Shown here one piece after another: positions 37,717 through 42,011 of a stretch of DNA of 47,706 nt. The stretch comes from Oscillospiraceae bacterium (lineage in GTDB: Bacteria; Bacillota; Clostridia; Saccharofermentanales; Saccharofermentanaceae). Position 1 is the stretch's first letter. Each line of letters opens with the position of its first letter. The position numbers and the translations under genes are program-made. The notes beneath the pieces are model-generated. The model searched no databases, was not told the DNA's origin, and worked only from the letters and a program-made list of their open reading frames with translations. The stretch is taken from positions 1 to 47,706 of the forward strand of contig SVJC01000004.1 in the NCBI GenBank assembly GCA_015069215.1, read 5' to 3'.

Positions 37717-38508
37717 ATGGAAGAAGAAAAGAAAGAAGTCTCTGAAGTAAAGGAAACAGAGAAAAAAGAAGTTAAGGCTGAAGGCAAAAAGTCTTTCCTG
37801 AACGAGAACACTCTTGAGATCATTACGGTAATACTGCTCGGCATCACCGCGCTTCTTACCGCATGGGCAAGCTATGTCGGCTCGATCCACGGCGGCAATC
37901 AGGCTACGAACTATGCAACGAGCAACAATATCTCGAGCGACGGTAACTCACTTTACAATGCCGCAGTACAGAATCTTTCCCAGGATATGGGGATCTGGAA
38001 CACCATTGCCTCTTATGAGGTAGAGATCCTTTATGCTGAATCCGTCAAGGACAATGCAGCCATCGAGGCAAATGTCTGGAAGCTTCAGTGGTTCTGCGAG
38101 GACAACCTTCCCGAGAACATGGCGGCTGCCATCGGATATGACGTCGAAAAATTCAACGACGGCAACAACGATACTCAGGAGATCCTTGAATGGCTCAAGG
38201 ACGATAAGGCAATAACAACACCTTTCACTGAAGAGTTCGTCAACAAATATTTCGAAGAGGCAAACACAAAGCTCGAGGAAGCAGAAAAGGTTATCGAGCA
38301 GGGTAAGCAGGATAACGCAAACGGCGACAAGTTCTCGCTCGTAACGGTAATCTACAGCGTTGCGCTCTTCCTTCTCGGCATTGTCGGAGTCTTCAAGAAC
38401 ACTACAAACAAGAAGCTCGTTCTTGCAGTCAGCGTTGTATGCCTGATCATTGCGGTCATATTCATGTGCACCATCCCGCTTCCTACATCCGGCGGTATCT
38501 TCGGATAA
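37717..38508 (+). CDS. Uncharacterised membrane protein (DUF4337-like)
   Basis: Charged N-terminus, TM ITVILLGITALLTAWASYVGSIHGG, two C-terminal TMs; SD aaggagc. Confidence 0.65.
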   Translation: MEEEKKEVSEVKETEKKEVKAEGKKSFLNENTLEIITVILLGITALLTAWASYVGSIHGGNQATNYATSNNISSDGNSLYNAAVQNLSQDMGIWNTIASYEVEILYAESVKDNAAIEANVWKLQWFCEDNLPENMAAAIGYDVEKFNDGNNDTQEILEWLKDDKAITTPFTEEFVNKYFEEANTKLEEAEKVIEQGKQDNANGDKFSLVTVIYSVALFLLGIVGVFKNTTNKKLVLAVSVVCLIIAVIFMCTIPLPTSGGIFG

Positions 38509-38538
38509 GTAGATACATTATTAAAGTGATGTTATAAT

Positions 38539-38564
38539 AGGACCGCCTTCGGGCGGTCCTTTTT
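38539..38564 (+). terminator. Intrinsic terminator with UUCG tetraloop
   Basis: ggaccgcc ttcg ggcggtcc TTTTT. Confidence 0.9.
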
Positions 38565-38615: not shown

Positions 38616-38643
38616 TTGAAAATCAAAATGTTTTTGCTATAAT
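38616..38643 (+). promoter_or_regulatory. Promoter of the rpmJ-rpsM-...-rplQ unit
   Basis: TTGAAA (38616-38621), 16-nt spacer, TATAAT (38638-38643). Confidence 0.75.
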
Positions 38644-38712
38644 AGTACGGCATGCGCCCAAAAAGCGCCTGTGTTTTGTTGTGGAAAAATAAAGCAACCA
38701 GGAGGTTTACTT

Positions 38713-38826
38713 ATGAAAGTCAGACCGTCAGTAAAGCCGATGTGCGAGAAGTGCAAGATCATCCGCAGGAACGGCAAGGTTATGGTCATTTGCTCCGACC
38801 CCAAGCACAAGCAGAGACAGGGTTAA
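38713..38826 (+). CDS. rpmJ: 50S ribosomal protein L36
   Basis: [39 protein letters not shown] aggagg; below the ORF-track length cutoff. Confidence 0.97.
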
Positions 38827-38890
38827 TCAGGCAAATGTCGGGTCTGTCATGTGTCGGAATTAGCCCTGACGCGAATTAGAAAGACAGGCC

Positions 38891-38996
38891 GCGGGCAAAC
38901 AAGCTCCGCCCGCAAACAATCGGAAGAATATTACACGCCATACTGTAAGGGCGGCTGCTCTTGAGGATAAACCCCGGAGTTCCTTACGCCGCGTGT
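38891..38996 (+). promoter_or_regulatory. Candidate structured leader between rpmJ and rpsM
   Basis: Hairpin gcgggc/gcccgc (38891-38913); compound stem acacgc/gcgtgt + gtaagg/ccttac (38933-38996). Confidence 0.45.
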
Positions 38997-39039
38997 CGTA
39001 TATATGAAGTATTACCACAATTCTATGGAGGTACACTAA

Positions 39040-39408
39040 ATGGCTCGTATAGCCGGCGTAGATTTACCGAATGACAAGAGGATCGAGACCGCTCTTACTT
39101 ACATTTTCGGTATTGGAACAACAAGCGCTGCGGACATCATCCGTGAGACAGGAATCAATCCTGATACGCGCGTAAAGGACCTTTCTGAGGACGAGGTCGC
39201 TAAGATCCGTGATCAGATCGAGAACAACTACAAGGTCGAAGGTGACCTTAAGAGAGAGATTGGCGCCAACATCAAGAGACTTACCGATATCGGTTGCTAC
39301 AGAGGACGCCGTCACAGATTAGGACTCCCCGTAAGAGGCCAGCGCACAAAGACGAATGCTCGTACCCGTAAGGGCCCTAAGCACACCGTCGCAGGCAAGA
39401 AGAAGTAA
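39040..39408 (+). CDS. rpsM: 30S ribosomal protein S13
   Basis: [26 protein letters not shown]...[29 protein letters not shown]. Confidence 0.98.
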
Positions 39409-39426: not shown

Positions 39427-39816
39427 ATGGCAGTTAAGAAAAGTACAAGACCCAGAAGAAGCGAGCGTAAGAACGTCGTAGACGGTCAGGCTCATATTCA
39501 TGCTACATTCAACAATACGATAGTTACCATTACCGACAAGCAGGGCAATGCAATTTCATGGGCTTCTGCAGGTATGGATGCCAAGGGTTCCCGTAAGGGT
39601 ACAAGCTATGCAGCACAGGTTGCATCCGAGAAGGCTGCAAAGGCTGCTTGCGATCACGGTATGAAGACCGTTGATGTCTATGTCAAGGGGCCCGGATCCG
39701 GACGTGAGTCCGCTGTTCGTGCGCTTGAGACCGCAGGCCTCAGAGTAACAATGATCAAAGATGTTACTCCCGTTCCGCACAACGGCTGCCGTCCGCCTAA
39801 GCGCAGAAGAGTTTAA
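39427..39816 (+). CDS. rpsK: 30S ribosomal protein S11
   Basis: [16 protein letters not shown]...[14 protein letters not shown]...[18 protein letters not shown]. Confidence 0.98.
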
Positions 39817-39866: not shown

Positions 39867-40460
39867 ATGGCCAGAGATATGACACCTGTCCTTAAGAAGT
39901 GCAGAGCCCTCGGTATTGAGCCTGCGTATCTGGGACTTAATAAGCAATCAAAGAAGAAGGCTAAGGTCGTCCGCAAGATGAGCGAGTACGGCATGCAGCT
40001 CAAGGAGAAGCAGAAGGCTAAGTTCATCTACGGAGTCCTTGAGAAGCCTTTCAGAAACTACTATGAGAAGGCACAGAAGCTTCACTACGGCACAACCGGT
40101 GAAAACCTCATGATCCTTCTCGAGACAAGACTTGACAACGTTCTGTTCAGAATGGGTTTTGCACGTACAAGAGACGAGGCAAGACAGATCGTAAGCCACA
40201 GAGAAGTTAAGGTTAACGGCAAGATCGTTAACATTCCTTCTTTCGGCGTTAAGGTCGGCGATCAGATCGAGATCAAGGAAAAGGCAAGAGGATCTCAGCG
40301 TTTCAAGGATATCGTTGAGGTTACCGGCTCAAGACGTTCTCCTGAATGGGTCGAGAGCGATCTGGAGAAGCTTGCAGGAAAGATCATCAAGCTTCCTACA
40401 AGAGAGCAGATCGATGTACCTGTTAACGAAGTACAGATCGTCGAGTTGTATTCTAAGTAA
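39867..40460 (+). CDS. rpsD: 30S ribosomal protein S4
   Basis: RLDNVLFRMGFARTRDEARQIVSHREVKVNGKIVNIPS (S4 domain); N-terminus lacks the 4-Cys zinc motif. Confidence 0.97.
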   Translation: MARDMTPVLKKCRALGIEPAYLGLNKQSKKKAKVVRKMSEYGMQLKEKQKAKFIYGVLEKPFRNYYEKAQKLHYGTTGENLMILLETRLDNVLFRMGFARTRDEARQIVSHREVKVNGKIVNIPSFGVKVGDQIEIKEKARGSQRFKDIVEVTGSRRSPEWVESDLEKLAGKIIKLPTREQIDVPVNEVQIVELYSK

Positions 40461-40514: not shown

Positions 40515-41465
40515 ATGATGGAAATCAGCCAGCCGACAATCAAGTGCGTTGAGTCCAACGACGATAAGTCATACGGCAAATATACCATTGCCCCGCTCGA
40601 GCGCGGTTTCGGTACAACCCTCGGAAATTCGCTCCGCAGAGTTCTTCTCTCATCGCTTTCCGGTGCGGCAGTTACATCTGTAAAAATCGACAAGATTAAG
40701 CATGAGTTCTCCACTGTTCCGGGAATAATCGAAGACATGACCGAGATCATCCTTAACATCAAGGGTATCCGCGCTAAGCTTCACAACGAGTCTAATATTG
40801 TCAGCATCAGCGTTGCCAAGGGCAGAACCGGCGCGCTCACAGCAGGCGATATCGTACACGGACCTGATGTCCAGATTATGAATCCCGATCACGTCATCGC
40901 TCACCTCAACGGTGCAGACGACGTATTCATGGAGTTCACACTCAGCAAGGGACGCGGCTACAACACCGCTGAACAGAATAAGCCCAACAAGCAGGTCATC
41001 GGACTCATTCCGATCGACTCGATCTTCACACCTGTCAAGAAGGCTAACTACAAGGTTGAGAATACCCGTGTAGGCGCAAGAACAGACTACGACAGCCTTA
41101 CTATCGAAGTCTGGACAGACGGAACGATCGAAGTTGACGAGGCTCTGTCCTCTGCAGCTAACTGCCTCATCGACCACCTCAAGTTCTTCACAGCTCTCGC
41201 AGATACTGATTCCGCACTGAGCTTCAAGAGCATTGAAGAGTCCGGTGAGCACAACAGCAAGCTTTCGGGCGTTATTGAGGATCTCGATTTCTCCGTCCGT
41301 ACTTACAACTGCCTCAAGAGAGCACAGATCAACACTGTCGGCGATCTTGTAGCACGTACGATGGATGAGATGATCAAGGTAAGAAACCTCGGTAAGAAGT
41401 CTCTTGAAGAGATCATCGAGAAGCTCGAGGGTATGGGTCTTCACCTCAAGGACCAGGAAGAATAA
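40515..41465 (+). CDS. rpoA: RNA polymerase alpha subunit
   Basis: PLERGFGTTLGNSLRRVLLSSLSGAAVTSVKI and C-terminal VRTYNCLKRAQINTVGDLV...NLGKKSLEEI. Confidence 0.98.
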   Translation: MMEISQPTIKCVESNDDKSYGKYTIAPLERGFGTTLGNSLRRVLLSSLSGAAVTSVKIDKIKHEFSTVPGIIEDMTEIILNIKGIRAKLHNESNIVSISVAKGRTGALTAGDIVHGPDVQIMNPDHVIAHLNGADDVFMEFTLSKGRGYNTAEQNKPNKQVIGLIPIDSIFTPVKKANYKVENTRVGARTDYDSLTIEVWTDGTIEVDEALSSAANCLIDHLKFFTALADTDSALSFKSIEESGEHNSKLSGVIEDLDFSVRTYNCLKRAQINTVGDLVARTMDEMIKVRNLGKKSLEEIIEKLEGMGLHLKDQEE

Positions 41466-41489
41466 CTTACATCTTAGGAGGAAAATAAG

Positions 41490-42011
41490 ATGCCTAACAG
41501 GAAAATCAGCCGTCCTTCAGACCAGCGCGCTGCTATGCTGAAGAATCAGGTTACTAATTTGATAATAAACGGCAGACTTGAGACGACAGTTGCTCGTGCC
41601 AAGGAAGTAAGCGCCATCGTTGAAGGTCTCATTGCAACAGCAGTTAAAGAGAAGGACAACTACACTACTAAAGAGATCACAGTCTCTGCTGCAAAGCTCG
41701 ACGGTAAGGGAAAGAAGGTTCTCAAGACCAAGACTTCCAAGTCCGGCAAGAAGTACGAAGTAGTTGACCGTGAAGTTAAGACAAAGACCGTTCAGGTTGA
41801 CAACCCTTCACGTCTTGCAGCCCGCAAGCAGATGGTTAAGTGGCTTTACAAGAGCCATGACAGCGAGGGCAACATCATCAACCCCGTCAACAAGATGTTC
41901 GATGAGATAGCTCCCAAGTACGTCGGCAGAACCGGCGGCTACACAAAGCTTGTCCGCATCGGCCAGAGACGTGGTGACGGTTCCGAGATGGCTATCCTTA
42001 TGTTCGTGTAA
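41490..42011 (+). CDS. rplQ: 50S ribosomal protein L17
   Basis: RKISRPSDQRAAMLKNQVTNLIINGRLETTVARAKEV; long basic insert before GGYTKLVRIGQRRGDGSEMA. Confidence 0.95.
   Translation: MPNRKISRPSDQRAAMLKNQVTNLIINGRLETTVARAKEVSAIVEGLIATAVKEKDNYTTKEITVSAAKLDGKGKKVLKTKTSKSGKKYEVVDREVKTKTVQVDNPSRLAARKQMVKWLYKSHDSEGNIINPVNKMFDEIAPKYVGRTGGYTKLVRIGQRRGDGSEMAILMFV

Follow-up and report, generated by a model that had tools for sequence, protein, structure and literature searches.

A conserved structured leader between rpmJ and rpsM in the alpha operon of Clostridia and its candidate ribosomal protein ligands

The rpmJ-rpsM gap and its transcription context

The window, which is the whole stretch of 47,706 nucleotides analyzed here, carries a ribosomal protein (r-protein) operon in which rpmJ and rpsM are separated by a gap of 213 nt at 38827-39039, a spacing that had already been recorded in the initial annotation. 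The genes and features of the locus are listed below.

37717-38508: membrane-protein ORF, preceded by infA and upstream of rpmJ
38539-38560: terminator between the membrane-protein ORF and the rpmJ promoter
38616-38643, + strand: promoter TTGAAA-N16-TATAAT 5' of rpmJ, with 11/12 consensus matches and a TG before the second hexamer
38713-38826, + strand: rpmJ (L36), identified by ORF translation and by tblastn in relatives
38841-38890, + strand: hairpin H1, identified by stem pairing across spacers
38858-38865, + strand: octaloop of H1, AAUUAGCC
38891-38913, + strand: hairpin H2, identified by stem counts across spacers
38928-39003, + strand: hairpin H3, a compound stem, identified by covariance model R1 and by class-wide covariation of its core
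38951-38957, + strand: core GCGGCUG inside H3
39027-39031, + strand: Shine-Dalgarno (SD) sequence GGAGG of rpsM, seen in the sequence 31 nt 3' of the H3 outer stem
39040-39408, + strand: rpsM (S13), the first cistron under presumed control and a candidate ligand
39427-39816, + strand: rpsK (S11), a candidate ligand
39867-40460, + strand: rpsD (S4), encoded in cis here and the favored ligand
40515-42011, + strand: rpoA and rplQ, the distal genes of the operon; rpoA was also checked in relatives

The rpmJ promoter TTGAAA-N16-TATAAT, or a close variant of it, is kept in most loci of the family, including those without the inserted membrane-protein gene, and no promoter-like site was found within the gap of the window. 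Since the promoter lies upstream of rpmJ and there is none in the gap, the leader is part of the mRNA and located between rpmJ and rpsM; the independent promoter that, according to the initial annotation, would have removed the structure from the message was thus not found. This arrangement leaves rpmJ outside the direct reach of leader control. Because a search of the + strand of the gap did not reveal a terminator-like site either, we infer that the leader is more likely to act via translation than via attenuation.

Two further observations were made upstream of the gap. The membrane-protein gene and the terminator (37717-38560) lie between infA and rpmJ in only part of the genus and are absent from that position in other relatives. 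In addition, a small hairpin, TGCGC...GCGC, was observed at the 5' end of the rpmJ transcript directly after the promoter (38616-38670); it is kept throughout the family and may represent either a further element or a 5' stabilizer.

Conservation and covariation of the hairpins

Folding of the window gap gave an MFE z of -1.14, with 24 of 200 shuffles folding equally well, and its significance could therefore not have been shown from one sequence in the initial annotation. The rpsM loci of 40 relatives and 80 named contigs were gathered, together with further spacers from other families of the order and from across the class Clostridia. Almost every family member had an rpmJ-rpsM spacer of ~175-245 nt, apart from a few shorter spacers in sister genera. 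Alignment of whole spacers with MAFFT followed by RNAalifold was too loose and proposed only short pairs, including one between the H2 loop and the SD; anchor-based stem counts were used instead.

H1, which had been missed at the outset along with the class-wide invariant core GCGGCUG, is the strongest family-specific element. Its outer stem is GGTCTGTC/GACAGGCC (38841-38848/38883-38890) and its inner stem GTGTCGG/CTGACGC (38851-38857/38866-38872). Inner pairs 1 to 4 were formed in 61 to 62 of the 62 spacers with compensatory pair types, the fourth pair, for example, occurring as AU (32), GC (16), CG (7) and UA (3), and the outer helix was present in 39 sequence versions. The octaloop has the consensus A[A/U]UUAGCC over the same 62 spacers.

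H2 (GCGGGC-AAACAAGCTCC-GCCCGC, with stem arms at 38891-38896 and 38908-38913) corresponds to the gcgggc/gcccgc hairpin proposed initially. It recurred in 61 of 64 spacers, where 24 different stems enclosed a constant GCU[C/U] loop. This loop is partly complementary to the SD, making a loop-SD pairing plausible as judged from the letters; GCU[C/U] fits GGAGG imperfectly, and the SD itself shows no variation.

H3 is the compound stem of the initial annotation, in which ACACGC/GCGTGT (38933-38938/38991-38996) forms the outer helix and GTAAGG/CCTTAC (38945-38950/38982-38987) the middle helix, followed by an upper helix, CTCT/GGAG. The core GCGGCUG makes up the 5' side of an asymmetric internal loop between two helices and is presumed to be a protein-recognition site. 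Covariance model R1, which describes H3, scored 72.5 bits at the window copy, its sole match in the genome. Family genomes each had exactly one R1 match, located some tens of bases 5' of rpsM, the sole exception being G147, which lacked a match and also yielded no rpsM.

The core extends well beyond the family. GCGGCTG was present in 35 of the 43 class Clostridia spacers of at least 80 nt, compared with 0.38 expected from dinucleotide shuffles, and in the class logo the G preceding CGGCUG stood at 97% with the neighboring positions varying. When scored strictly, with no bulges allowed, two stems joined by an asymmetric loop with GCGGCUG on its 5' side outscored every one of 40 shuffles in 43 of 91 sequences from the order and the class, and many pair types were seen at each position. 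In an alignment of 15 cores, 12/12 pairs changed on both sides, and the covariation score was 1.03 compared with 0.34 for shuffled and at most 0.31 for slid alignments. These 15 cores were picked to be in register, with the 40-shuffle test serving as the control for selection; loops were trimmed, and in a few cores one extra unpaired base was dropped for the purpose of alignment only. The stems thus covary across relatives, the check that had been proposed with the initial annotation.

Order and class spacers outside the family were mostly without H1 and H2, and in genomes without the element the spacer was often ~20 nt. The H1-H2-H3 form is a lineage-specific elaboration of the class-wide core, comprising two extra hairpins. 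Both the constant placement of the element 5' of r-protein genes within the mRNA and its covarying secondary structure are as generally expected of r-leaders, and it is well supported as a conserved, structured leader that belongs to an r-protein operon and adjoins the rpsM initiation region.

The UUAGCC of the H1 loop is complementary to the GGCUG of the H3 core, suggesting a possible pseudoknot. Both motifs are invariant in the genus, to which the UUAGCC partner is mainly limited, and the pairing is beyond the reach of covariation. Among the class spacers UUAGC was not enriched (6 observed, 8.2 expected), and the pseudoknot was rejected as a class-wide feature. Since UUAGC is not conserved across the class, the pseudoknot is not essential to the class-wide mechanism.

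Some variation in distribution and form was also observed. Outside the class, one other genome of the phylum (G304; locus L308, ~1490-1560) has the same GCGGCUG hairpin 5' of rpsM and rpsD in cis, and the element is therefore not confined to the class. A second model, R2, was rejected as a phylum-wide detector because it contained too little information; it gave few matches, of which one in the phylum was the rpsM leader of G304, and the off-target matches inspected lay elsewhere. Four class Clostridia loci (L225, L231, L232 and L240) have spacers of ~300-340 nt with extra repeat-like sequence around the core hairpin.

Comparison with known leaders and with 16S rRNA

In the available text of Eckert and Weinberg (2020; PMC7247131), an S4 r-leader of Clostridia is placed upstream of rpsM, rpsK, rpsD, rpoA and rplQ; it is structured with covariation, and its ligand was chosen by precedent. 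The same text describes a GAAA conserved toward the 5' end and reports no clear mimicry of rRNA. This r-leader shares its class and its position before rpsM-rpsK-rpsD-rpoA-rplQ with the window and most of its relatives. Because the gene position and the class are the same, the class-wide core, compared here by text description only, is probably the motif of Eckert and Weinberg or overlaps it. The invariant feature found here, GCGGCUG, is not mentioned in the available text of that paper, whereas GAAA, counted here as a k-mer at any position, stood at 32 in the class spacers compared with 29.7 expected and was not enriched in the order or family either. The window copy also differs in adding H1 and H2, and five carriers are without rpsD in cis. 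Such a leader before rpsM in Clostridia had already been predicted; here, its persistence without rpsD in cis was observed in some genomes.

A scan of the window, order and class loci with Rfam 15, as suggested with the initial annotation, returned no corresponding family at the gathering threshold. The alpha operon ribosome binding site of Escherichia coli (RF00140) gave a weak match of 20.6 bits in the window, where most of the matching positions cluster at the SD and the start of rpsM, and 36.2 bits in the best relative, compared with a gathering cutoff of 38; membership in this S4 operator family was rejected on these scores. The two elements are alike in their position before rpsM, in belonging to an r-protein operon and in the proposed S4 repressor. 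In E. coli, however, the leader pseudoknot includes the start site according to the available text of a 2024 review (PMC10931766), whereas the conserved hairpins here end before the SD; the H3 outer stem ends 43 nt 5' of the rpsM ATG (39040), close to the distance of about 40 nt given in the initial annotation.

S4 leaders from this phylum and from a related one were also considered. In Bacillus, the target of S4 is its own rpsD mRNA (available text of PMC10931766), and a conserved GUAA is common to the Bacillus rpsD and Fusobacteriales S4 leaders (available text of PMC7247131). In the window, the middle stem of H3 includes GUAA, which is replaced by GUAG, GUGG or GUGA in relatives; GUAA is a feature of the Bacillus and Fusobacteriales leaders and not the conserved feature here.

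The 16S rRNA of one relative (G026) contains CGGCU at ~504. In the known 16S structure, this CGGCU is part of a bulged 5' strand flanked by two helices, and its GGC pairs with GCC of the 530 loop. H3 is similar to 16S h18 in that its CGGCU likewise bulges from the 5' strand where two helices meet; in this genus, the UUAGCC of the H1 loop could supply the distant GCC partner. It has been shown that h18 changes conformation after S4 binds the neighboring five-way junction (PMC10296100). In the same 16S rRNA, GCGGCUG also occurs at the 3' end (~1522) and CGGCU or GGCUG near 588, 732 and 1311. Given these similar short matches at other sites, mimicry of h18 was not accepted as proof of S4; the resemblance is not specific and is a lead only.

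Position of rpsD and the candidate ligands

The gap contains a conserved, folded leader through which a ribosomal protein very probably shuts down its own operon. We propose that the mRNA from the rpmJ promoter would carry the gap as a cis-acting leader and that excess free r-protein would bind H3 at the asymmetric internal loop GCGGCUG. Bound H3 would block translation initiation at rpsM, the SD of which is 31 nt downstream, and by coupling the repression would extend to rpsK-rpsD(-rpoA-rplQ). H1 and H2 would be family-level additions, probably stabilizing the bound state, with the H1 loop UUAGCC possibly pairing with the H3 GGCUG and the H2 loop perhaps touching the SD. The most likely ligand would be S4, as in E. 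coli, where S4 is the repressor of the alpha operon (available text of PMC10931766), and as in the Clostridia prediction of Eckert and Weinberg. S4 is the best candidate for the ligand, at about even odds, and we lean slightly toward the full model, in which a cis-acting leader with an H3-bound r-protein, most likely S4, blocks rpsM initiation. Of the autoregulatory element bound by S4 or S13 that the initial annotation had envisaged, the conserved leader in the mRNA near the rpsM initiation region has been borne out; S4 is favored as its ligand, and S13 becomes a rival.

The position of rpsD bears on this choice. Although rpsD is in cis in most leader carriers, in five genomes (G024, G110, G026, G038 and G057), which represent four genera and two further families of the order, rpsK is immediately followed by rpoA, and GCGGCUG is intact before rpsM. 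Their relocated rpsD genes are divergent (~40% identity), and GCGGCUG was not found upstream of the stand-alone rpsD in any of these five. With rpsD displaced, an S4 feedback loop would no longer close on its own gene. Nor does the leader go together with rpsD in cis in the rest of the sampled genomes of those two families: genus g19 has rpsD in cis and no core, and g21 is without both. The S13 and S11 genes, by contrast, always adjoin the leader. It is therefore possible, if tentatively so, that a leader of the same type has S13 or S11, always encoded directly downstream, as its ligand, with S4 incidental and the leader not, or not only, an S4 operator. In 16S rRNA, both GCGGCUG and GGCUG are likewise present near the 3' end and near 1311, but these resemblances are short, and each could be due to chance. 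Moreover, neither S13 nor S11 is named as an established r-leader ligand in the available text of PMC7247131 and PMC10931766, whereas S4 is the precedent, and a stand-alone S4 could still control the rpsM leader in trans in the rpsD-displaced genomes.

Within two families of the order, the absence of rpsD from the operon together with the presence of a divergent stand-alone S4 gene (~40% identity) was observed in G054 and G064 in addition to the above five genomes (loci L288-L294 and L315-L327), and in G066, G104, G035 and G051 both kinds of S4 gene are present. In G054, GGCGGCTG before the stand-alone rpsD was considered as a leader copy and rejected, since its sister G064 has GGCGGTTG at this place and the letters are for the most part base-paired within another hairpin.

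The alpha operon encodes S13, S11, S4, the RNA polymerase alpha subunit and L17, so that the leader would link the supply of ribosomes with that of RNA polymerase, and the control of this operon has only been predicted for a large group of Clostridia from the gut and the rumen. The lineages in which the leader is kept and rpsD is gone constitute a natural experiment that could separate S4 from S13/S11 as ligand. If the ligand were S13 or S11, this would explain why the leader stayed before rpsM-rpsK after rpsD was displaced and would provide a lead on the control of alpha operons without rpsD, which the available text of the 2024 review (PMC10931766) states to be unknown for Bacilli.

An r-protein operator is also to be preferred to an element for RNA processing, stability or insulation between rpmJ and rpsM, such as a nuclease site allowing different expression levels of the two genes. 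The element does separate two cistrons, with rpmJ excluded from the region under control, and a spacer of ~20 nt suffices in many clostridial genomes, as would fit a processing hairpin. Such a hairpin would not, however, need a seven-base invariant internal loop on freely changing stems, the gene context is constant in the family, and leaders before the alpha operon are of a known kind, leaving this explanation unlikely. Chance or composition-driven folding without conserved function, with which the window MFE z alone would be compatible, is refuted by covariation, together with conservation, over genus, family, order and class, and we consider it wholly improbable.

Short tandem duplications were observed at the rpsM start in two related MAGs (L057 and L075), and these may be real or an assembly artifact.
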